Shown here: in pieces, positions 1,490-45,355 of the stretch | Position numbering within the stretch: the stretch's first letter is position 1 | Layout: each line of letters starts with the position of its first letter | Source of the DNA: Bolinopsis microptera | Lineage: Eukaryota; Ctenophora; Tentaculata; Lobata; Bolinopsidae | Direction: 5' to 3' | DNA length: 64,000 nucleotides | Assembly: GCF_026151205.1 (NCBI RefSeq) | Contig: NC_087072.1 | Coordinates: forward strand, 11,818,169 to 11,882,168 | The notes under the pieces: generated by a model | What the model was told of the DNA's origin: nothing | Database searches by the model: none | The model's input: the letters and a program-made list of their open reading frames with translations, nothing else | Position numbers and translations under genes: made by a program

Positions 1490-1748
1490 TAGGTGAATTG
1501 TATAGTATATATGTGAATTGTATAGTATATATAGTGTATTGTACAGTATATATAGTGTATAGTGTGTATACACATGTATAGTATATAGTGTGTATGGTGT
1601 GTATAGTATACACATGTATAGTGTGTAGTATACTGTGTGTATGGTATACACATGTATAGTGTATAGTATACACATGTATAGTGTATAGTGTGTATACACT
1701 GCACATGTATAGTGTGCACTAGTAGTATATTGTATATTGTATAGTGTA
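1490..1748. repeat. TATAGTGTGTATACACATG-type simple repeat
   Basis: Degenerate tandem copies of TGTATAGTGTATAGTATACACA, broken by small variants. A shorter run of the same motif occurs at 5328-5375, next to the second tandem duplication. Confidence 0.85.
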
Positions 1749-3109
1749 TTTGACCAAAACCCATAATCATGGGTAGAGTGTACCGCTGCCAGTGTCTCTC
1801 TTTTCCAAACAAAAGGAAATGATATAAATTTGAGGAACAGTCCGCTAATGCAAATTGATACCGAGAATGAAATCGGTCGCTCGCTTTTTCAAATCAATAA
1901 GCTTTATTACAATTCGTGAGCCGTGATCGAATGGAAAAAGCGAGCGACCGATTTCATTCTCGGTATCAATTTGCATTAGCGGACTGTCCCTCAAATTTAT
2001 ATCATTTCCTTTTGTTTGGAAAAGAGAGACACTGGCAGCGGTACACTCTACCCATGATTATGGGTTTTGGTCAAATATCATCTCTTTTTGATTATAATGT
2101 CAGGATAATTTACACAGCTAGTCGAAACTTCATAAACAAGGAGGTAATTTCGACGATTTCGAAATTCTGCCTTTGAAAACGTTTCCTTGTGTTTAGTTAG
2201 GTATATCTGTCGATAACAGACTGAATATGGCACTTTTTACTCATTCAAGTTGGCATTAAATTCATATATAATGCCATTTAAATATCGTGGAAAGCAGAAT
2301 ATATTCGAAATCACGAATGAGCAAAATTCTCACCTTTCGCACGTGCAAACTTTGAGCGGACGTTGCGTGCGCATACAATATTGAATCACCGTAAATTTTT
2401 GCATAGTGGTATTTAATATATAGTTTGATAAGCATGCAAAGTTTCAGAAGATTTCAAAAAGAACTTGGATCACAACGGGACTCCAAAGTTGATAAAAATC
2501 GTGAAAATCAAAATTTTTTAGTGATTTTAGCTATTTTAAATCAATTTGGGCGTGTCCCCACGTGTGCAACTTTTCGATTTTTAACTTTAAAACTAGCCTA
2601 TAACACAATTTACACCTTTAAGAAGCAAAATTGAGCTCCACAACCCAAGGGATGGCCCAACACCAGAGAATACTAATTCACAACTTTTGTGTTTTTATAA
2701 AATTATTCTTCAAAAAATCACTAACTTCAATAGCAAATATCTTTATGAAGGAGTAAGGTAGGAAACTTTTCCGGTAGATTTTCAGAATGCTTGAACAATT
2801 ATCTAAGGTGAAAATGTCCTCAGATTTTGAATAAAATTACTCCTTAATGGTTTAAAATCGATTTGAAAAGTTGTTATTTTGTCAAAAATCAAGTTTTAAA
2901 AACACTTAAATTGATGACGTCATCAAGTGATGATGATGATGATAAATTATTTTTCAATATAAAGTAAACTAAAGTATAAACGATTATCTTTAAAACCTGT
3001 GGTTCGAAATGACTGTATCTTTTGTACTTTTGAATCTACGGACACTTAAATGTAGGCTACAATTGACTGCAAAAAGCGTCTATACATATTATTATTATAT
3101 ATATATATA
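1749..3109 (+). repeat. 1.36-kb tandem unit, copy 1, with foldback head
   Basis: The unit begins with an inverted repeat: a left arm at 1749-1890 and a right arm at 1934-2075, 142 bp each and nearly perfect, with a 43-bp centre at 1891-1933. The remaining ~1 kb (2076-3109) is AT-rich with no supported gene. The whole unit is repeated directly at 3110-4470. The foldback outer ends read TTTGACCAAAACCCATAAT. Confidence 0.9.
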
Positions 3110-4470
3110 TTTGACTAAAACCCATAATCATGGGTAGAGTGTACCGCTGCCAGTGTCTATCTTTTCCAAACAAAAGGAAATGATATTAATTTGAGGAACC
3201 GTCCGCTAATGCAAATTGAAACCGAGAATGAAATCGGTCGCTCGCTTTTCCCATTTATTCACAGCTTACGAATTGTAATATAATAAAGCTTATTAAATGG
3301 GAAAAGCGAGCGACCGATTTCATTCTCGGTTTCAATTTGCATTAGCGGACGGTTCCTCAAATTAATATCATTTCCTTTTGTTTGGAAAAGATAGACACTG
3401 GCAGCGGTACACTCTACCCATGATTATGGGTTTTAGTCAAATATCATCTCTTTTTGATTATAATGTCAGGATAATTTACACAGTCGAAACTTCATTAATA
3501 AGGAGGTAATTTCAACGATTTCGAAATTCTGCCTTTGAAAACGTTTCCTTGTGTTTAGGTAGGTATATCTGTCGATAACCGACTGAATATGGCACTTTTT
3601 ACTCATTCAAGTTGGCATTAAATTCATATATAATAATGCCATTTAAATATCGTGGAAAGCAGAATATATTCGAAATCACGAATGAGCAAAATTCTCACCT
3701 TTCGCACGTGCAATCTTTGAGCGGACGTTGCATGCGCATAAAATATTGAATCACCGTAAAATTTTGCATAGTGGTATTTAATATATAGTTTGATAAGCAT
3801 GCAAAGTTTCAGAAGATTTCAAAAAGAACTTGGATCCCAAGGGGACTCCAAAGTTGATAAAAATCGTGAAAATCAAAATTTTTAGTGATTTTAGCTATTT
3901 TAAATCAATTTGGGCGTGTCCCCACGTGTGCAACTTTTCGATTTTTAACTTTAAAACTAGCCTATAACACAATTTACACCTTTAAGAAGCAAAATTGAGC
4001 TCCACAACCCAAGGGATGGCCCAACACCAGAGAATACTAATTCACAACTTTTGTGTTTTTATAAAATTATTCTTTAAAAAAGCACTAACTTCAAAAGCAA
4101 ATATCTTAATGAAGGAGCAAGGTAGGAAACTTTTCCGGTAGATTTTTGGAATGCTTGAACAATTATCTAAGGTGATAATGTCCTCAGATTTTGAATATAA
4201 TTACTCCTTAATGTGGTAAAATCGATTTGAAAAGTTGTTACTTTGTCAAAAATCAAGTTTTAAAAACACTTAATTTGATGACGTCATCAAGTGATGATGA
4301 TGACGTTAAATTATTTTTCAATACAATGTAAACTGAAGTTTAAACGATTATCTTTAAAACCTGTGGTTCGAGATGACTGTATCGTTTATACTTTTGGATC
4401 TACGGACACTTAAATGTAGGCTACAATTGACTGCCAATTGACTGCCAAAGCGTCTATATTATATAATATA
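3110..4470 (+). repeat. 1.36-kb tandem unit, copy 2, with inverted loop
   Basis: Directly repeats copy 1 with scattered substitutions. Foldback arms are about 3110-3251 and 3300-3441. The part after the foldback has the same orientation as in copy 1, but the centre between the arms is the reverse complement of the copy-1 centre: AATAAGCTTTATT then CAATTCGT in copy 1, and ACGAATTG then AATAAAGCTTATT here. Confidence 0.88.
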
Positions 4471-16035: not shown

Positions 16036-16566
16036 GATTTAAACAAGATCTGCAAATGGATAATCATCCACCGTAAAGTCTGATCTACAAGCATCAGTTA
16101 TACCCGACTTCTCAAAGCCTTTCCTTATGTCATCTGGCCTCCCTTTTAAATATACAAAAAGTTCGTTGATCCAACGAGCGTGTACTTCACGGATCACTGT
16201 CAAGCGGGTATCAATTTTCACATTGTCTGATGAAACTCCTCCATTGAGCTGACACACTATGTTTTTCGCGTACCAATCTTCGTACTTATTGCGCATGAAT
16301 TTCTTAGCCAGTCCATTGATAGATATGTCCAGGGGCTGTAGATGATGGGTCATATTAGCTGGAACTTTCTGTAGGATGCAGTTGTTGGCTGTCATCAGAT
16401 CTTTTAGTGTCTGTGTGTGTTGGGCCCGAAACACATCTGATATCAGTAGCGCTTTCTGCTCAGGGTTGTTGATGGAGGCTCGAACTGATTCTATGTGGGG
16501 AAGAAGGATTTTCTCAAAGAACTGGACACTGGTCAAACCTTTCGACCATCTGGTGAGGCGTCATAG
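16036..16566 (-). pseudogene. Pogo/Tigger transposase fragment (DDE_1 domain, C-terminal half)
   Basis: A minus-strand frame of about 175 codons ending at 16039 carries the second half of a CENP-B/pogo DDE catalytic domain. LLISDVFRAQHTQTLKDLM contains the second catalytic Asp where active relatives read DNFRAQ-like sequence, and VPANMTHHLQPLDISING contains the third Asp in the PLD context typical of DDE_1. The helix-turn-helix DNA-binding region and the first Asp are missing; a stop lies just upstream of RLTRWSKGLTSVQFFEKIL. It lies within the TA-flanked element, which agrees with a Tigger assignment. Non-functional as it stands. Confidence 0.85.
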
Positions 16567-21426: not shown

Positions 21427-22110
21427 ACAATAAATGCAATAAAACGGTGGAAAATTTAAATAAAACTAGGGTAGAAGAAACCCTTTACAATATACGAATT
21501 GGTCAATCAAAAATAGAGTTCAACACATTTAAAAGGTCACACTACAACAAGCACTCCCTGAACTTTTAAGAAGTACTAGGAGAGTTGATTAGGTTAAGGT
21601 TCAAATCATTTACATTTGTTGCAGCGGGTGTAAGAGTTTTGGAACCTCTGTAACCCTATTGTTTCTTCTTCTCGATATGATTTAAACCCTCGATCTTCCC
21701 TAAAACTGTATCTGACACTTTCCAAAAATGGCCTGTGTCTAAATTCCTCTAGATTAGTTTTAAATCGATAACAGACACTGAATTTCTAACTTTCTAACAA
21801 AAGATGGCGATTTATTTCAAAAGCTGATAACACGCTCTGATGAAAAATTATTTGACAACGATTTATATATTTCTATCAATATTTGAAAAAATCAATGTAC
21901 ATACATTCAATTAAATTAAGTGATGTAATTGGCAGAGCATGTTAATAATAAATGTTAGTATTTACTCATTTGTAGATACTTGATCTATTGACAGGGCCCC
22001 TTCTCATACATAGGAAAAGTTGGATGCCTTACAGATTACAACACTTCCAGAGAAACAAGTTAGAGGAGATTTAATTGAAGCCTACAAAATTGTGAATTGA
22101 TCGGTCGAGT
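21427..22110 (+). repeat. LINE remnant, copy 1 (inverted partner at 30.7-32.7 kb)
   Basis: The sequence matches the reverse complement of 30695-32675 once two insertions there are removed. Near 22012-22100 the plus strand encodes LDALQITTLPEKQVRGDLIE followed by AYKIVN, the motif close to the C-terminus of CR1/L2-type reverse transcriptases (RRLRGD-IE-YKI). It is otherwise decayed. It supplies the empty-site sequence for the insertions in the other copy: TTATCAGCTTTTGAAATAAA and AGTGTCTGTTATCGAT are uninterrupted here on its minus strand. Confidence 0.75.
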
Positions 22111-22309
22111 ATGGAAACCTCTGTAACCCTAGACAGATATTGTACAGGTTCTGAGCAAATCAAAGTGCAGTCTGCGTCTGACAAATGACATCACACAACA
22201 GTATCTTTAGCCTTTATTAAGGCTGATCTTTTCTGAAAGATGTTTCAGGAATTGTGAAGCCTCAAACGCATTTCCTCCTGTAGTACACCAAAGGCGTGAA
22301 AGTTATAAA

Positions 22310-23606: not shown

Positions 23607-26600
23607 CTAGAAACATTCATAGTCCATGGTGGCAGGTATCAAGTTAAACGAAGTTACACTGACTGGCAATGTATACGATTGTCGTCTCCCTCTCTCACCC
23701 CTGACCGCTATCAGGGTGCTCCTGAGGATTGAGAATCTAATCCTGGTGCGCATATAACACATAATAGCCGCATAGTCTTCTCCTCTCTTCTGGGATAGTT
23801 TTTCAGCGAGTCTCTTGTGGTATCTTGTGGCTTGTGGACCCCATCCGCCATTTGTTGAGTATATAAGTGGAGTAAAGGTGCCTTTTTCCACCTGGATGAT
23901 TCTGTTGTTGTACTTTTTCATTTTCCTCATTTCATGAACTTTATAGATCTGTTCCATATCTTTTTTGTCATATGTGGGTGAGTTGGGGTGGGTAACACAG
24001 ACATCAAAGAATGTTCGTTCAAATGTGCTCCAGAGACCTCGTGAGGATACATCAGGTGCAGCTCTATCAGCATTGGTACCAACAATTTCTTCATTATCAA
24101 GGGGTATCAATGCTGGCTCAGTCACTACATCTCTGCATACTTCACGCTGCAGCTCTGCATTTAGATCGCGGATGTTGTTGTGTCTCATAGAAACATAGCC
24201 ACCTTTCTTGCATATAAGTGTGTGATTCACATTATTTCTCTCTCCACAAGCACAGTGAAATGGGGTGTTAGGGATCTCCCAACCATAACGCAAGTACAGA
24301 GCATCACGGAACTCAATCTTGTTCAGGGAGTAGCCAAATCTCTTCAATGGAAGTGCAGTAAGCCAACATCCTGAACCTTTCTCTTTGATGAACTGGAGAG
24401 ATCTCTTTAGGTTGGGATCTCTTACACTGTCCTCTATTGATTTGCTAACCGTAAATAAGTGTTTCTCCTTGATTGCCTTGAGACTTTTTATAGTGTCATT
24501 TTGAATTGACATGTTGTAATATTCAAGGGTGTTTTGCTGGTTGATAATCAGGTCTGTGAGGTCTTTTGTGATGGTGACTGAGGCTGTGAATTCTCTATTG
24601 CAGTTTTCAACTGGGTTGGAGATACCTAGGCCACCATGTCTGACTGGCAATGCAAATATGGAGCGGTCCAAGTCTGATACGTTCTTACCCAAGATTGCTG
24701 GAATAAAATCTGTTCTGATGCAATCCTCCAATGGTTGAAACAAGTGACTTATACCCGGGATGGTCCTCTGAATGAACGTCCACCGGTGACAAATTCCCTT
24801 AGTATATGCAGTCAAAGCAGCTTGGGGCTCCTCAACAGCAATTGATGACAACAGCTTGATGTCCTGACACCATTTATGGACTTTATCTGAGACATATTTG
24901 TTCTTAAAAACTTCGCTGCCAATTGCTGCACCCAAATGGCGTTCTCCTTCAGACCCGATTTTAATACCAGTGCCTGAGAATACTTTCTGCGCAAGATCTA
25001 GGTCCTCGGTTTTCTTCACAATCAGGACGGTCTTACTGGCTTTTGGGTAATATCCATACTTTGGTCCTTGCTCCAACAGCGTATCCCACCATATCTTAAT
25101 ACCTTCAATCTTTCCACCAGCACTACTGTCGTCTGCATACCAAGACTGTTTGCAAACACTGGGCTTGGAGGCTGTGGCTAGGTCATCTACTAGAGGCTTG
25201 ATCCCTAACGCATAGAATGCCATTGCTGCTACATCTCCCTGAGTTGAACCTTCCTCAGACTTAAGTTGGTAGTGGTCCTCGGTAGTATTAATGATCAGGT
25301 CTGCTGGCTTTTGGTAGTGGTTCTTTAGATACTGATAGAGCGGAGGACAGATCTCATGAACATTGTGAAGGGCTGCTTCTCTATTAAGACGATTGAACGC
25401 ATTATCAGCGTCAACCTGTAGTATTGCTTCAGTGTCACTGTCTTCCCAGATCTGTCTCATTGCATGAATGGAAGCCTCTATTCCTGATTTGAGCCCTGCA
25501 CAGGTCTGCAGTGGGCCAGCAGCATATTGTATATCAGTTTTGAAAGACATTATAACTGCTTTTCCAATGATTCTGCGCAATATCTCGCCGATTCCAATTG
25601 GTCTTACACCAGGTTTCCCGTTCTTATCCTGGCCTTTATCAAGAGGGATTAATCTGCATGCAGTGAACTCTTTCAGACAGCAATGATGGATATCTTCTCT
25701 ACAAAGGCGCCTTGCAACAATTGCTATAGACTCAGCAAGTGTCACTGATGCTTTGCCAAATGATTTGCTGCAGATGATATGCTTCCACAAATCTGAGTCC
25801 GTTAGTGTTGGGCCGCCTGATCCATCCAAATATAAACAAGCCCTCTTGACAGTCTCTGCGTCAATCCTCTCAAATATCACTTCCTGAGGTGGAGGAGTAC
25901 TGTGAGGGTGCAGAACAACTGGATCTGCTTTAACAGCTGGAGGGTGTTTCTCCCCAAGGACCTGTTTAATGTTTGCTGTTAGGCTGTGAACTCCTAAGGT
26001 GTCATTGGAACTGTCAACATATTTGGTGGCTTGTTTAACTTTCCCAAGAAGCATTAGTCGGCAGAAACTCTTCTTCCTGGATTCCTCGCTGATTTTTTGT
26101 TGCTGCACCAAGGCTTTCTGAATACTCCTGCACTCCATCATTAGATCGTCAAGTTCTCCATTTTTCCATTTAACCAAACGCTTGGTGAGATATGTTACAT
26201 GGTCTCTTGCTTTTGACTTGCTTGACGGTTTTTGCAACATGATTGGCAAGAAGATATGAACCAGTGCGAACGATAGCCTTTCCCACTTGGTAGCATCTGC
26301 AAATAAGAGGATGAGCCGAGTCAGTTCTTTTATAAAGTCGCTACCTGATTTACCTCTGGGAACTAGGAAAAGATTCTTTCTCCATGTCACCATCTCTTGA
26401 TAAACAGCTTGGACTTTCTCAGCTATCAACTCTTCATCAACCATTGAGCCCCAATTAATTTTGTTTGCTTTCACTGCTTGACAAGTATCACAAAACCATA
26501 TCTCTTCATTATCCATCTCAGCGTACTCGGTTTCACTGATAAACAAACAAGGTGCATGGAACCATTCTTCACAGCCATCACAACCCAATGCCTTATCCGA

Positions 26601-26966
26601 ATCCCCCACAACACTCCTACACACGGGACAGTTATAACAGATATCATTTTCCTCGTCAGGAGCATCAATGATCTGCTGGTTCTCTACATTATCCCTACAT
26701 TTCTGACAAACCCACCGTTCACTGTCCACTGGTGCAGACTTGCCAAGACATTTAGGATGGAAAAATGTCTTACAGGAATCACATTGAATGCTACAAGGTT
26801 CTGATATAAGATCTTTGGGACAGATTCCACATAACAGAGAAACAACAGGTGTAACATAAGCAATACCTTCAGAAGACAGGTGTTGAGATATCTCCGGATC
26901 ACAGGTGTCTGGTAGCTGTACACTCTCTGTTTCTGCTGTCTTGTCTTCACCGCTGTTTGTTATCAT
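23607..26966 (-). CDS. Retrotransposon polyprotein: two PHD fingers, reverse transcriptase, endonuclease-like C-terminus
   Basis: One uninterrupted minus-strand ORF of 1119 aa from the ATG at 26966; the frame is open ten codons further upstream without an earlier ATG. Residues ~45-165 hold two PHD fingers (CGICPKDLI with CQKCRDN; CPVCRSVVGDSD with CDTC). Residues ~360-690 are a reverse transcriptase: LIPLDKGQDKNGKPGVRPIG, ILQVDADNAFNRLNRE (motif A Asp), EEGSTQGDVAAMAFYALG (motif B) and WYADDSSAGG (YxDD intact). The C-terminal third has a CxC-H-C cluster (CACGERNNVNHTLIC), then RAAPDVSSRG, FFDVCVTH and VEKG, resembling the PD-(D/E)xK restriction-like endonucleases of early-branching non-LTR elements. 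No RNase H is seen. An A-rich 3' tail and three truncated relatives nearby show it is mobile. The intact frame suggests recent activity or selection; a domesticated gene is the alternative. Confidence 0.88.
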   Translation of the reverse strand: MITNSGEDKTAETESVQLPDTCDPEISQHLSSEGIAYVTPVVSLLCGICPKDLISEPCSIQCDSCKTFFHPKCLGKSAPVDSERWVCQKCRDNVENQQIIDAPDEENDICYNCPVCRSVVGDSDKALGCDGCEEWFHAPCLFISETEYAEMDNEEIWFCDTCQAVKANKINWGSMVDEELIAEKVQAVYQEMVTWRKNLFLVPRGKSGSDFIKELTRLILLFADATKWERLSFALVHIFLPIMLQKPSSKSKARDHVTYLTKRLVKWKNGELDDLMMECRSIQKALVQQQKISEESRKKSFCRLMLLGKVKQATKYVDSSNDTLGVHSLTANIKQVLGEKHPPAVKADPVVLHPHSTPPPQEVIFERIDAETVKRACLYLDGSGGPTLTDSDLWKHIICSKSFGKASVTLAESIAIVARRLCREDIHHCCLKEFTACRLIPLDKGQDKNGKPGVRPIGIGEILRRIIGKAVIMSFKTDIQYAAGPLQTCAGLKSGIEASIHAMRQIWEDSDTEAILQVDADNAFNRLNREAALHNVHEICPPLYQYLKNHYQKPADLIINTTEDHYQLKSEEGSTQGDVAAMAFYALGIKPLVDDLATASKPSVCKQSWYADDSSAGGKIEGIKIWWDTLLEQGPKYGYYPKASKTVLIVKKTEDLDLAQKVFSGTGIKIGSEGERHLGAAIGSEVFKNKYVSDKVHKWCQDIKLLSSIAVEEPQAALTAYTKGICHRWTFIQRTIPGISHLFQPLEDCIRTDFIPAILGKNVSDLDRSIFALPVRHGGLGISNPVENCNREFTASVTITKDLTDLIINQQNTLEYYNMSIQNDTIKSLKAIKEKHLFTVSKSIEDSVRDPNLKRSLQFIKEKGSGCWLTALPLKRFGYSLNKIEFRDALYLRYGWEIPNTPFHCACGERNNVNHTLICKKGGYVSMRHNNIRDLNAELQREVCRDVVTEPALIPLDNEEIVGTNADRAAPDVSSRGLWSTFERTFFDVCVTHPNSPTYDKKDMEQIYKVHEMRKMKKYNNRIIQVEKGTFTPLIYSTNGGWGPQATRYHKRLAEKLSQKRGEDYAAIMCYMRTRIRFSILRSTLIAVRGERGRRQSYTLPVSVTSFNLIPATMDYECF

Positions 26967-27242
26967 CGTAGCGGACTTTCCATTGTCATACCTCAATAAA
27001 TGTAATAGATTTGTAGTGTTGTAATTAGTTTAAAACTAATTTTAATTTCTTCTTCGTAGGGGGCTGTGGTCAATATCACTAATGGTAAGATCGTGACCAC
27101 TGTAAGATAGAGCATTGGAGCCCTGTGCTTACCCCGGTAAAATTAATAAATCAAGGAAAAAAAATGTTTAGCTTTTGTTTTTTTTGCATTTAGTAAATCG
27201 TTTAGTTGCTTGTATAAAGCCGATGATCCTTGGTAGTGAGAA
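26967..27242. other. Short spacer between two retroelement pieces
   Basis: No gene seen. A T-rich run at 27160-27190 may be the A-rich region of a minus-strand LINE. Confidence 0.4.
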
Positions 27243-30979: not shown

Positions 30980-32143
30980 CAGCTCACAGTGGGGCTCCAT
31001 GCTGACATTTAGCCTAAAAACGAGTTTTCCTAATGTTTTAGATTGTTGTAAATTCTGATAGAGAATAAATAACCGGATTCAATGCTTTTTAAATTAGCTC
31101 AATATCTCGGTTGGGTCAAAATTTACAACCATTTGAAAAGCGCGCCTGAAAATAACCTGCCTGCACATGCCCAGAAACTCAATTTCACTGCCATTTTTGA
31201 GTCAGGCTGAGGTTCCTTTTGTTTTCAATGTTTTTCAACTTTTGATTGATTGAACATGGATATAAGCATTCTTAGTACTGTTTAAGAAGAAAAAACCATG
31301 ATTTCGGTCAATTTTGGATTTTTGGTAGCTAAAATTAGAATATTTTTCAAAAATAGGCCTTAAAATTTCATTCGCTGACCACAAATGGGTGGTAAAGTTA
31401 TAAATGGCCCCATATGGCCCGGGTTTCATTATGTTTTCTATGTTTTCCCATAATTTTTCTAGCAGAACCCAGAAAATTTGGCTTCGGAACGCTTCGGAAA
31501 AAAAATTATGACCCATTTTTGGTACTAGCCTGAGGTGAAAAATCGCGTCAAAATAGCGCGAAAAATGAAAACTGATAGATTAAAAACTGATTTTTTCATT
31601 TATTTCATAGCTTTTTGGTGAACACTTCGATATTTTATGCTAATACCAGCAAAGTTCAATTGGAATAAGCAATATTTGGATGGAAAAATAGTGCATATGA
31701 GCCAAAAATAGCCAAAATCTGGCAATTTGAGCTCGGAAAATCCAGGGGCAACTCTGATTTCATAGGATTTTTCTTATGTTTTTGTCATATTGCATAGTTT
31801 TTATGGTTCTTCTTTCTGAAATACCCTTAAACAATCACATCAGCATGATTGATGACCATTTCCATACGAAAAAGCAGAAAAATGGGACAGAAACCGCTTA
31901 AAATTCGATGAAATCTTAAAACTGCTAGTCAAAAAAGATGCTTTTTGTGTGACAGAAAGTGCCAAATTTTCGAAAAAATTGATTTTTTGCCCAAAAAAGT
32001 AGTGAAAGTTGTCCAATTTCACTGAAATAAGTCATAATTGACGATTTAATCCAAATTGACACCACCAAGATGTGGCCAGAGGCATAAAAGGGCAAAAAAA
32101 CCAAATGTCAGCATGCCCTTTACGCGAGCCCCACTGTGCAGCT
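30980..32143. mobile_element. DNA element with CACAGTG ends and 5-bp target duplication (Transib-like)
   Basis: The element body is 30985-32138 (1154 bp). Both ends read CACAGTGGGGCTC when read inward, and a further CATGCTGACATTT block is repeated in inverted form inside each end. CAGCT is duplicated at 30980-30984 and 32139-32143, and the related LINE copy at 21.8 kb has the unbroken site TTATCAGCTTTTGAAAT. CAC-starting ends with a CACAGTG-like heptamer and 5-bp target duplications are features of Transib transposons and of RAG recombination signals. No transposase is encoded, so it would be a non-autonomous member. The superfamily call is inference from the ends only. Confidence 0.72.
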
Positions 32144-41100: not shown

Positions 41101-41934
41101 ACCTACACTGGGTTGGTCCTGTTTGTTTGTTTTTTCGTTTTTCTTTTTACTACTAAAGCTGGTGTTATATTTGCTGCTCACGTTTAAAGTCGTGACCATG
41201 ATTCTCGTTCACCAATTTGACGAAATTTAAAAGGGTAACAAATTTTGAGATCCCAAGAATCGATAAATTTGATGGTATTTGCTTGATATATTTCCTTTCT
41301 AAAGAAGTTTCGAATATAGCAGCGACGAATGCTCTGCAAATTTGGTTAAAGTTCTGCATCTTAATGCTGAGTGTTTTATACAGTAAAATCTCGATTAACC
41401 GGGCTCGATTTTTTCGTTCGATATTATATCCCGTCTTCCCAAACACACGCTTCCTGATAGGCCCTGTTAATTGAGGGTGTACTTTATTCTAGAAAGGGGG
41501 AAAACTTAACTTATAGAAATTCGGTTACAACTTTGGAAAAGTTTTCGAAATAGAGAAAACAAAAACTTTACACTCTTGATTAAAATTGAGCTTGCAAATT
41601 CTCTCCTAACTTTCTTTTAATTTCGTTGGTTATTTATCGAATCAGAATATTCAATATGAGATTGACAGTTTACAGTGTTGTTTTTTATCATTAGGCGTTA
41701 AAAATCGAAATTATTACTTTTCAGCGCTAAATTTATCATTTTGTCACAAAAATGAATTTCAATGCTCAAGTCTACAATACCATTTAAAAGTTCTTCTTAA
41801 TCATGAAATTCAGGGTTAAACATTTGATGAAATTACAATACAGCTCGATGGCAATTTAAATTTTACAACATCATCCATAATTCTTATGAAACGACAAGTA
41901 ATTAAAAAATCAATTTATTTTAGCGATTTAACAC
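41101..41934. other. Spacer between hnRNP K-like gene and first intronless KH gene
   Basis: AT-rich, no gene seen. It ends with an acceptor-like TTTATTTTAG at 41914-41923, 11-14 nt before the next start codon. Confidence 0.45.
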
Positions 41935-43209
41935 ATGATGGCAGAAGCAGCAACTTCGCGAGGTCGAGGTAGGGGTCGTGGTGCCCCTCGCGGAGGTCGT
42001 GGTGGTTACGGTCAGAAACGACCTGCTGAATCCTTCGACTACGAGGACTATGGTTCCGGAGGTGGGTACACCAAGAAGAGGAAGATAATGGACGATGTGT
42101 ACAGATTCCTGGTGAGAGAGGATCTGGTGAGAGCTGTCATTGGGAAGGGTGGAGATCACATCAGGATGATAAAGGAGGAAGCTAAAGCAGCAGGAATTGA
42201 AACCAAGGTGTCTATCTACGCTCAGGGGTCAAATGGCGCCCCCCTGATGGAAGGTGCTGTGGACAGAGTCATGAGTGTGCAGTCCACCGGGGACGGATTA
42301 GAAATGGCGCTCACAAACCTCCTGCCATCAGTGCAAATCCACCACAACCACAAATCTTTCAGAGGTGGTCGCGGAGGGGGTGGAGCACCGGGTCAGAAGA
42401 GTCAGAAGTTAGAACTCCGTCTACTGGTGCCAGCTCATTGTTGCAGTGGTATCATCGGTAAAGGTGGCTCTGTTATTAAGCGAATCAAAGAAGAGACTAA
42501 CTCCTACATCCAGGTTTACACTCTTCCCATGCCGGGCTCAGAGGAACATTGCGTCAGAATACAAAACTTTGAAGCTCCTGACCTGATTGCGACCGCTGTC
42601 AAAGTGTTTGAATCAATCGCAGATATAAAAGGAAAGAACCCGATAATCATGTACGATCCAATATACTTTGAGCATGGAGAATACGGTGATACCGGTAGTT
42701 ATATTGACACAGAGTGGTATCAGGAAGCACTACGATCAGGGGTTGCTAAACCCACTCCATTCAAACAGATACGAGGATCATCAAGAGCCGCCCACACTGC
42801 TCCTGCTGCCCCACATGCTGCTTACACTGGATATGAGGAGGAGTATGAGTATGGGTATGAGCATGAAGGGTACGGTTATGGGTACGATGAAGGTTACGGT
42901 TACGCTGAAGAGGAGTACGGTTATGAAGACTACTACGCATACGCTCCCCCAGCACCCGCGCCAAGAGCACGAGCACGTGGTGCCCCACGTGCACGCTCTC
43001 GAGCTGCTCCTCCTTCCAGAGGTTACGGAGCCCCCTCATCAGCCCCCAGAGGTTATCCTCCTCGTGGTAGAGGTGCCCCCAGAGGAGCTGCCCCCAGGGG
43101 TGCTCCTAGAGGTTACTCAAGAGGAGCACCACGAGCACGTGGAGCTCCCCGCGGTAGAGGAGGTCCTCCTCCAGCTGCTTCCTACGCTCCTGAGGAGGCC
43201 GTCGAATAG
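41935..43209 (+). CDS. KH-domain protein with Tyr/Gly and RG-rich tail, paralog A (424 aa)
   Basis: The coding region is uninterrupted from ATG 41935 (a second ATG follows at 41938) to TAG at 43209. The N-terminus has an RG-rich run (SRGRGRGRGAPRGGRGG), then KKRKIMDDVYRFLV. KH1 is about residues 55-140 (RAVIGKGGDHIRMIKEEAKA) and KH2 about 160-235 (GIIGKGGSVIKRIKEETNSY); both keep the GKGG loop. A conserved block NPIIMYDPIYFEHGEYGD follows. The tail is Tyr/Glu/Gly-rich and then RGG/RGAP-rich, a composition typical of RNA-binding proteins that form RNP granules and are arginine-methylated. It is about 80% similar by eye to paralog B over both KH domains and lies close downstream of the three-KH gene on the same strand. 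Closest family seems hnRNP K/PCBP-type KH proteins; the exact orthology is not clear. Confidence 0.9.
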   Translation: MMAEAATSRGRGRGRGAPRGGRGGYGQKRPAESFDYEDYGSGGGYTKKRKIMDDVYRFLVREDLVRAVIGKGGDHIRMIKEEAKAAGIETKVSIYAQGSNGAPLMEGAVDRVMSVQSTGDGLEMALTNLLPSVQIHHNHKSFRGGRGGGGAPGQKSQKLELRLLVPAHCCSGIIGKGGSVIKRIKEETNSYIQVYTLPMPGSEEHCVRIQNFEAPDLIATAVKVFESIADIKGKNPIIMYDPIYFEHGEYGDTGSYIDTEWYQEALRSGVAKPTPFKQIRGSSRAAHTAPAAPHAAYTGYEEEYEYGYEHEGYGYGYDEGYGYAEEEYGYEDYYAYAPPAPAPRARARGAPRARSRAAPPSRGYGAPSSAPRGYPPRGRGAPRGAAPRGAPRGYSRGAPRARGAPRGRGGPPPAASYAPEEAVE

Positions 43210-43888: not shown

Positions 43889-44206
43889 GAATATCAAATT
43901 TGTAAGGAGCTCCGAAAATTGTTTATCGGACGTGCTAAGGTGTGCGTGTTGCCCAAAGCTCTCTAACATCTTTACATGTTAATTTATATCTGATTTAATA
44001 ATTCATTTTTAATCCTCTATTATCATTTTCATTATGTGTTGTGTTGGTTATTTTGGTCACCCTGGCCCTGTTGCAAAAAATCGTGGTAGTAATAGTGACT
44101 ATTACGGCAAAAATTATTTATAAACGTAATTTTGAAAGGTAACTTTCCAAAAAATAATAGCTCAAAATTTACTGACTTAACACCTCAATATTTAGCTGCT
44201 GCCTTC
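43889..44206. other. Upstream region of KH paralog B
   Basis: AT-rich. A stop-free frame extends upstream to 44132 but starts at TTG. The sequence CTGACTTAACACCTCAATAT then TTAG at 44192-44195 looks like a branch site and acceptor, so this part is more likely intron or outron than coding. Confidence 0.5.
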
Positions 44207-45355
44207 ATGGCTGAAGCACCCATCAGAGGTCGGGGACGAGGTAGACCTCGCGGTGGTTTTGCACAGAAGCGCTCTGTGGAGTACGAGGATTATAGCTCTG
44301 CGGTGTACAGCAAGAAGAGGAAGATAATGGATGATGTGTACAGGTTCCTAGTAAGGGAGGACTTGGTTCGATCAGTGATAGGTAAGGGGGGAGAACACAT
44401 TAAAATTATCAAGGATGAAGCGAAGGAGCACGGTATTGAAACTAAAGTGTCTATCTACGCTCAAGGAGCAAACGGGACGCCTTTAATGGAAGGATCAGTG
44501 GACAGGGTGATGAGTGTACAGTCTACGGTTGAGGGACTTGGTATGGCGCTGGCTCATCTTTTACCATCAGTTCAGATTCATAAAAACTTCAGAACTGGTA
44601 CCCGGGGCGGTGGGTCGTTCGGCAGGGGAAGTCAGAAACTAGAGCTGAGATTGATCGTGCCATCTCACTGCTGTAGTGGGATTATAGGGAAAGGAGGGTC
44701 TGTTATCAGGAGGATTAAGGAGGAGACTAAATCTTACATTCAGGTTTACACACTTCCTCTACCACTTTCAGAGGAGTTTTGTGTCAGAATTCAAAACTTT
44801 GAAGGCCCGGACTTGGTTAATACGGCCGTTAAAATATTTGAATCGATAGCTGATATCAAAGGAAAGAATCCAATAATCATGTATGACCCAATATTCTTCA
44901 ACCACGGTGAGTACGGAGACACAGGGAGCTACATCGACACAGAGTGGTATCAGGAAGCTTTGAGATCGGGAGCAGCACAGCCTACACCCTACAAGGCCAT
45001 CAGCTCTCAAACTCAAAGCCGATACCCAGCTTACCCAGCTTACGAAGAGGCACAGTATGGGTACGAGGAGTTCGTGCCTGGGTACGGGGGGTATGGCGAG
45101 GACTATGGGTACGAATGTGGAGATCCTTATTATTACGACTATTACGAGTACCCTCCCCCGGTACCACGTGGCAGGAGCCGCGCACCCCCACGAGGGAGGG
45201 CCTATCTTAGCCGGGTCTTGTCTAGGGGCTTCAGAGGTCGGCCTAGTTATGAGGGCCGGGGATTGAAGACGGGGAGAGAGAGCTCTGTTAAAATAGAATC
45301 TATGGACTTCACCGAATCTGGAGCGGATACTGCTGGACAGTCTGCTCAAATTTGA
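44207..45355 (+). CDS. KH-domain protein with Tyr/Gly-rich tail, paralog B (382 aa)
   Basis: The uninterrupted coding region runs from ATG 44207 to TGA at 45355. The ATG was chosen because it matches the paralog A start (MAEA) and follows an acceptor-like site by 11 nt. Order: short RG-rich N-terminus, KKRKIMDDVYRFLVREDLVR, KH1 with SVIGKGGEHIKIIKDEAKE, KH2 with GIIGKGGSVIRRIKEETKSY, and the shared block NPIIMYDPIFFNHGEYGD then YIDTEWYQEALRSGA. The tail is Tyr/Gly-rich (YGYEEFVPGYGGYGEDYGYE) but its RGG part is much shorter than in paralog A and ends in an acidic, Ser-rich segment. An ATTAAA at about 45371 could be a polyadenylation signal. Same inferred role as paralog A, RNA binding; function not tested by anything in the sequence. 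Confidence 0.9.
   Translation: MAEAPIRGRGRGRPRGGFAQKRSVEYEDYSSAVYSKKRKIMDDVYRFLVREDLVRSVIGKGGEHIKIIKDEAKEHGIETKVSIYAQGANGTPLMEGSVDRVMSVQSTVEGLGMALAHLLPSVQIHKNFRTGTRGGGSFGRGSQKLELRLIVPSHCCSGIIGKGGSVIRRIKEETKSYIQVYTLPLPLSEEFCVRIQNFEGPDLVNTAVKIFESIADIKGKNPIIMYDPIFFNHGEYGDTGSYIDTEWYQEALRSGAAQPTPYKAISSQTQSRYPAYPAYEEAQYGYEEFVPGYGGYGEDYGYECGDPYYYDYYEYPPPVPRGRSRAPPRGRAYLSRVLSRGFRGRPSYEGRGLKTGRESSVKIESMDFTESGADTAGQSAQI

Follow-up and report, generated by a model that had tools for sequence, protein, structure and literature searches.

In this study, we examined an insertion of 1154 bp at positions 30985–32138 of a 64,000-nucleotide stretch of the genome of the ctenophore Bolinopsis microptera (the window hereafter), and we conclude with high confidence that it is a non-autonomous DNA transposon of the Transib superfamily. 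Transibs are RAG1-related transposons, the superfamily to which the transposon origin of V(D)J recombination is traced, RAG1 being the recombinase of antibody genes. The element encodes no protein, has inverted termini of 13 bp that start with CACAGTG at both ends, belongs to a family whose insertions are flanked by 5-bp target duplications, and has ends homologous to those of an element on contig C3 that carries a transposase resembling the RAG1 core. Each end is bipartite, one end being short and the other long, and it is this pairing of ends that makes the 1154-bp family interesting.

Insertion, copies and target duplications

The first-pass annotation of the window had reported CACAGTG at both termini, a 5-bp duplication of CAGCT and an empty site near 21.8 kb, all of which were borne out. 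The heptamer is the start of the 13-bp CACAGTGGGGCTC at each end and the duplication directly flanks the insertion (Table 1). The surrounding host sequence is repeated in inverted orientation at ~21.8–22.1 kb, and the joined flanks without the insert (junction GTTATCAGCTTTTG) align across the junction to this second copy, which holds a single CAGCT and no insert. Unnoticed earlier was a second inverted block of 13 bp, CATGCTGACATTT, adjoining the 13-mer at the left end and lying 10 bp further inward at the right end. In the interior, a six-frame scan gave no Pfam match near the cut-off.

Table 1. Coordinates of the element, its empty site (both in the window) and the transposase-bearing element on contig C3.
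Feature	Position	Strand	Details
Left target site duplication	30980–30984		CAGCT; occurs once in the empty site
Left terminal inverted repeat, block 1	30985–30997	+	CACAGTGGGGCTC; heptamer CACAGTG at 30985–30991
Left block 2, short end	30998–31010	+	CATGCTGACATTT; no spacer after block 1
A-rich CTAAAAACG	31014–31022	+	22 nt past the heptamer; not seen at the right end
Non-coding interior	31011–32102		Six-frame Pfam scan, comparison with the C3 element
Right block 2	32103–32115	-	CATGCTGACATTT reading inward from the right end
Spacer of 10 bp, long end	32116–32125	-	GCGTAAAGGG reading inward
Right terminal inverted repeat, block 1	32126–32138	-	CACAGTGGGGCTC reading inward
Right target site duplication	32139–32143		CAGCT
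Empty site, inverted host-repeat copy without insert	21761–22125	-	From alignment
Complete C3 element (L087)	C3:4782663–4786589		3927 bp; TATCT duplication, transposase inside

A DNA search of the whole genome (264.65 Mb, 232 contigs; match counts are lower bounds) found at least 34 stretches matching the 1154-bp element, the window copy included. Eleven copies, again counting that of the window, are full-length at 98.7–100% identity, a twelfth spans element positions 3–1154 at 90% identity, and the flanks differ among copies. The full-length copies differ pairwise by 0.60% on average (range 0.17–0.95%), with 29 of their 33 variable sites private to one copy. This low divergence with mostly single-copy variants fits a recent burst of the family, and the window element fits a young insertion. 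Sequence shared between the 1154-bp element and a second family, type B, comprises 35 bp at the left end and ~570 bp in the right half. Two loci whose matches span 3.3–5.1 kb, L009 and L010, were considered as autonomous copies and rejected: each is a copy interrupted by insertions within it, with a reverse transcriptase frame in the case of L009 and other repeats in that of L010, and neither gave a transposase match. The 13-mer CACAGTGGGGCTC occurs at 92 genomic places, 56 of them in one 20-bp tandem array (C13:14896328–14897757) that was rejected as apparently unrelated to the transposon, though its unit contains the 13-mer; of the remaining 36 places, L053 and L054 likewise fall in tandem repeats.

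The copies thus found on the advice of the first-pass annotation have the same termini, and an exact 5-bp duplication is present in 18 of the 20 elements for which both flanks were read. In L007 the duplication matches at 4 of 5 positions, while the left end of L022 is damaged and its flanks agree over 4 bp instead, by chance; L022 apart, none of the 20 elements shows a full flank match at 3, 4, 6, 7 or 8 bp. Among the 18 exact duplications, those of L012 and L013 have common flanks and represent one event, and that of L010 lies inside a short tandem repeat. Their G+C content is 59%, compared with 31–47% across the window in 2-kb steps. These data bear on the possibility that the element is of hAT type, for instance from a short-duplication group, with ends that read CACAGTG by chance. 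The inner CAGTGGGG, which we take to be similar to hAT ends, was counted in favour of such an origin. However, the 18 duplications are of exactly 5 bp and begin outside CAC, whereas an 8-bp duplication, named by the first-pass annotation as a sign against a Transib, is fully matched in 0 of 20 elements. A hAT or other transposase as partner, the second sign it had named, was likewise not seen, the protein linked to such ends being RAG1-like, although no hAT family was directly searched for in the genome. A hAT origin is consequently hardly credible to us.

A transposase between homologous ends

Two genomic loci, at C2:19700416 and C3:4783511, matched the Pfam RAG1 model above the curated cut-off. 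The latter lies in a complete element (C3 element, Table 1), which answers to the autonomous RAG1-core or Transib element whose existence the first-pass annotation had envisaged: it has homologous ends and a 5-bp duplication, while an exact CACAGTGGGGCTC end together with transposase sequence was met only on a broken carrier described below. The ends of the C3 element read CACAGTGGGCTAC+CATGCTAGCAT and CACAGTGGGCTGCGCGGGGGGGT+CATGCTAGCAT. Its left end reads CACAGTGGGCTACCATGCTAGCATAGGCCTAAAATCGACT, that of the window element CACAGTGGGGCTCCATGCTGACATTTAGCCTAAAAACGAG, and over the left 45 bp the observed score of this comparison was reached in 0 of 5000 shuffles that kept the first 9 bases. The transposase is encoded by two long frames across a GT-AG intron, read from the sequence. 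Best PDB matches of the second exon are 6pqn (E-value 1.1e-11), RAG1L 6b40 (6.1e-8) and RAG1 (1.4e-5); the entry name of 6pqn is DNA-mediated transposase, and we take it to be the Helicoverpa zea Transib. The protein keeps the stretches GFDGSGG, AMDRKA and GGIEACNK, whose counterparts in RAG1 hold the catalytic D-D-E residues. Its tail consists of CKHCDMRGHSRRWC followed by 18 residues and fits Cx2Cx3GHx4C, the motif of CTT* (PMC7204232), equated with CTT1 via PMC9435367.

Several points weigh against the assignment to Transib through this element. None of 14 control genomes was matched in the Pfam RAG1 search, which is thus without positive control. Similarity is less clear between the two right ends, where 37 of 5000 shuffles reach the observed score, and comparison of the interiors gave no clear similarity, so that the 1154-bp element did not arise from the C3 element by internal deletion alone. 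Finally, no intact transposase element with exact 13-bp CACAGTGGGGCTC ends was found in the genome.

The C3 element also bears on the question whether the family could derive from a RAG-like (RAGL) transposon, which encodes RAG1L and RAG2L as in amphioxus ProtoRAG, and be moved by a RAG1–RAG2-like pair. The proteins of the C2 and C3 loci both align to RAG1L 6b40 along a long stretch, and the family shares end asymmetry with ProtoRAG (PMC8289069), both of which speak for such a derivative. Both proteins nevertheless have 6pqn as their top solved match, and Subgroup I Transibs likewise combine the Cx2Cx3GHx4C tail with asymmetric ends (PMC9435367). Moreover, the only long frames of the C3 element, the one element examined in this respect, are the two transposase exons: beyond them less than ~0.9 kb remains on each side, where no frame seen reaches 85 residues or resembles RAG2, and the element is therefore filed as Transib and not as RAGL. 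A Pfam RAG2 search of the genome gave no match and is uninformative, since its control matched in 0 of 14 genomes. We consider a RAGL derivative very improbable. Of the two families suggested by the first-pass annotation, a non-autonomous Transib or another RAG-like element, present evidence supports the former rather than the latter.

The match on contig C2 (L086) was set aside as a partner or a domesticated gene and is treated as a fossil. Its protein matches 6pqn (1.3e-18), RAG1L 6b40 (1.9e-16) and RAG1 (6.5e-10), with the alignment to 6pqn in two separate stretches; the stretches matching the D-D-E segments of the C3 protein align to 6pqn, 6b40 or RAG1. The two overlapping frames in which it is encoded suggest a frame shift, its 3' end passes into zinc-finger repeat sequence, and the single CACAGTG in the 4119 bases examined outside the protein is unlike the ends of the 1154-bp family. 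At least 55 genomic matches to the C2 protein were found, mostly fragments and many with stops. In the broken carrier mentioned above, L015 on contig C9, the type B left end, which begins with CACAGTGGGGCTC, is present over ~101 bp. Directly interior to it lies a transposase fragment of 59–73 residues (37–46% identity, E-value 1.7e-4 genome-wide), oriented as in the C3 element. L090, likewise on C9, shows no more than a short right end of type B. At C146:6003 lies a type B right end, and ~77 bp inward a stretch of 66 bp matches the C3 element with 79% identity, at equal distance from the terminus. Among the best candidates scored there was no transposase match beyond the type B right end of C146.

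Two further observations concern the placement of these loci. Many transposase fragments form a cluster at 12.6–14.1 Mb of contig C5, and in C3:4782663–4808286 the C3 element and the split window-family copy L009 lie ~17 kb apart, beside similar C2H2 zinc-finger repeats.

End architecture and pairing of short and long ends

Block 2, that is CATGCTGACATTT and its variants, starts at position 14 at one end of the element and at position 24 at the other. The first-pass annotation had instead pointed to CTAAAAACG as a nonamer at nearly the spacing of a 23-recombination signal sequence (23-RSS). This stretch indeed lies 22 nt past the left heptamer and agrees with ACAAAAACC at six of nine positions, but by eye the likeness is weak, one-sided and no shared signal; as also stated there, nothing nonamer-like could be seen by eye at the right end. 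It was therefore set aside as a true nonamer, the second block that occurs at both ends being CATGCTGACATTT. The C3 element and type B have similar A-rich stretches at their left ends (CTAAAATCG and AAAAAAG, respectively).

For a genome-wide view of the ends, we used a pattern of CACAGTGGG, 0–30 free bases and CATNNTNNCNT, with the reversed pattern as control, which gave 141 matches compared with 7 for the control. In the examined loci, an open-gap pattern is fitted by 43 distinct ends, 23 with a gap of 4 and 20 with a gap of 14 bases. The following genome-wide gap and pairing figures refer to the 100 listed of the 141 places, the other 41 lying outside them. The gap is 4 in 47, 14 in 49, 12 in 3 and 22 in 1 of these places. 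Where adjacent ends face inward at most 8 kb apart, they form 36 inward pairs, every one of which joins a short and a long end (4/14), without a single 4/4 or 14/14 pair among the 36 listed; 28 of the 100 ends are unpaired, including all four with odd gaps. In 19 of the 36 pairs the ends are 1102–1115 bp apart, which defines a ~1.1-kb family, and in three of these 19, namely those for which both end sequences were available, the ends are nearly those of the C3 element. The 36 pairs stem from few families (type A, type B, the ~1.1-kb family with C3-like ends, the C3 element) and the pattern was built from already known ends, so that they do not amount to 36 independent tests. The spacer sequence varies by family (GCGTAAAGGG, TCTAATAGGG, GC-rich in the C3 element and small relatives) at a constant length of 10, and block 2, too, has changed between families while this length held.

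We propose a model in which a RAG1-like DDE transposase, encoded elsewhere in the genome, would bind both bipartite ends, one of them short with blocks 1 and 2 adjacent, the other long with 10 bp between the blocks. The transposase would cut beside CAC and the element would enter a target staggered by 5 bp, from which the 5-bp duplication follows. From the likeness of the ends, we infer that a C3-type transposase or a close relative moved the 1154-bp family, and the constancy of the pairing suggests that one short and one long end may be required for movement. By analogy with RAG and Transib, cutting may proceed via their nick-hairpin route.

The difference between short and long ends is about one helical turn of DNA, rather like that of the paired signals used by RAG1. 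It is quite possible that a strict rule of one short and one long end operates in this RAG2-less Transib of an early-branching animal, that the one-turn difference was kept despite divergence of the spacer, and that the logic of the 12/23 rule is older than RAG2 and V(D)J recombination. A serious, if somewhat doubtful, alternative is that the asymmetry is simply the legacy of a single ancestor and functionally meaningless. The descent of the 36 listed pairs from few families would agree with this, whereas a spacer that stays at 10 bp while its sequence and block 2 diverge would be less expected, as would the lack of 4/4 and 14/14 pairs; in addition, asymmetric pairs are preferred by ProtoRAG in assays (PMC8289069).

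Comparison with known systems

Transib-like proteins have been reported from ctenophores (6) and other groups by Tao et al. 2022 (PMC9435367), who name Mnemiopsis leidyi and Pleurobrachia bachei, and all Subgroup I Transibs are described there with asymmetric ends and a CTT1 tail. Our system resembles this subgroup in its RAG1-core transposase without RAG2, its CAC-initiated asymmetric block ends, seen in all inward pairs listed, and its CTT1-type tail. It differs in that the window family is a protein-less derivative with a block spacing of 0 and 10 bp, the ctenophore Transibs being compared by name only. The 6pqn transposase is the best solved relative of the C2 and C3 proteins, while the ends of HzTransib are described as symmetric (PMC8289069) in contrast to the asymmetric ends found here; the same source calls most Transib families symmetric and states that ProtoRAG depends on asymmetric ends.

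With ProtoRAG and other RAGL transposons (amphioxus, oysters, ribbon worm, sea star), the family and its C3 relative have in common CAC ends, 5-bp duplications and the Cx2Cx3GHx4C tail, and with ProtoRAG bipartite asymmetric ends; 5-bp duplications and non-autonomous elements are reported for RAGL (PMC7204232). Unlike the window family, RAGL transposons carry RAG2L, and their ends differ, with the protostome consensus CACTWMCAAACKTYKBB (PMC7204232) and, in ProtoRAG, CACTATG and a spacing of 27/31 (PMC8289069). In a pelagophyte RAGL, elements of 13 bp and 10 bp are spaced by 4/13 bp (PMC9435367). Compared with the 12/23 RSS, the CACAGTG heptamer is identical and a short and a long spacing lie about one helical turn apart (10 here, 11 in the RSS), but there is no nonamer at both ends, and block 2 has another sequence and sits nearer to the heptamer (6 and 16 bp). 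In the literature consulted, no title or abstract opening mentions such a non-autonomous family of ctenophores, most full texts being unopened.

Other features of the window

Elsewhere in the window, a single open frame of 1140 residues at 23607–27029 (-) contains two stretches of PHD fingers and, after them, a reverse transcriptase domain, and a fragment with a DDE_1 endonuclease domain lies at 16039–16560 (-). Two long tandem open frames occur at 41932–43209 and 44099–45355 (+), the former with KH domains, and two ~300-bp DNA stretches in them are 74–75% alike. Nested inverted repeats of 151–174 bp at 1747–3444, 93–100% complementary, could form long hairpins, and a tandem array of ~14-bp units runs from 12151 to ~13.2 kb, with similar sequence, by eye, around the L010 insertion.

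Conclusion

Asymmetric Transib ends and ctenophore Transibs have already been described (PMC9435367), so that the gain lies in a clear example and a test system and not in a new class. The genome combines non-autonomous copies of recent date with an open-frame transposase element and a constant pairing of short with long ends, and thereby offers a test, set up by nature, of whether the pairing rule of V(D)J recombination preceded RAG2. If a 12/23-like rule does hold in a Transib without RAG2, dozens of natural copies in one genome would document it.
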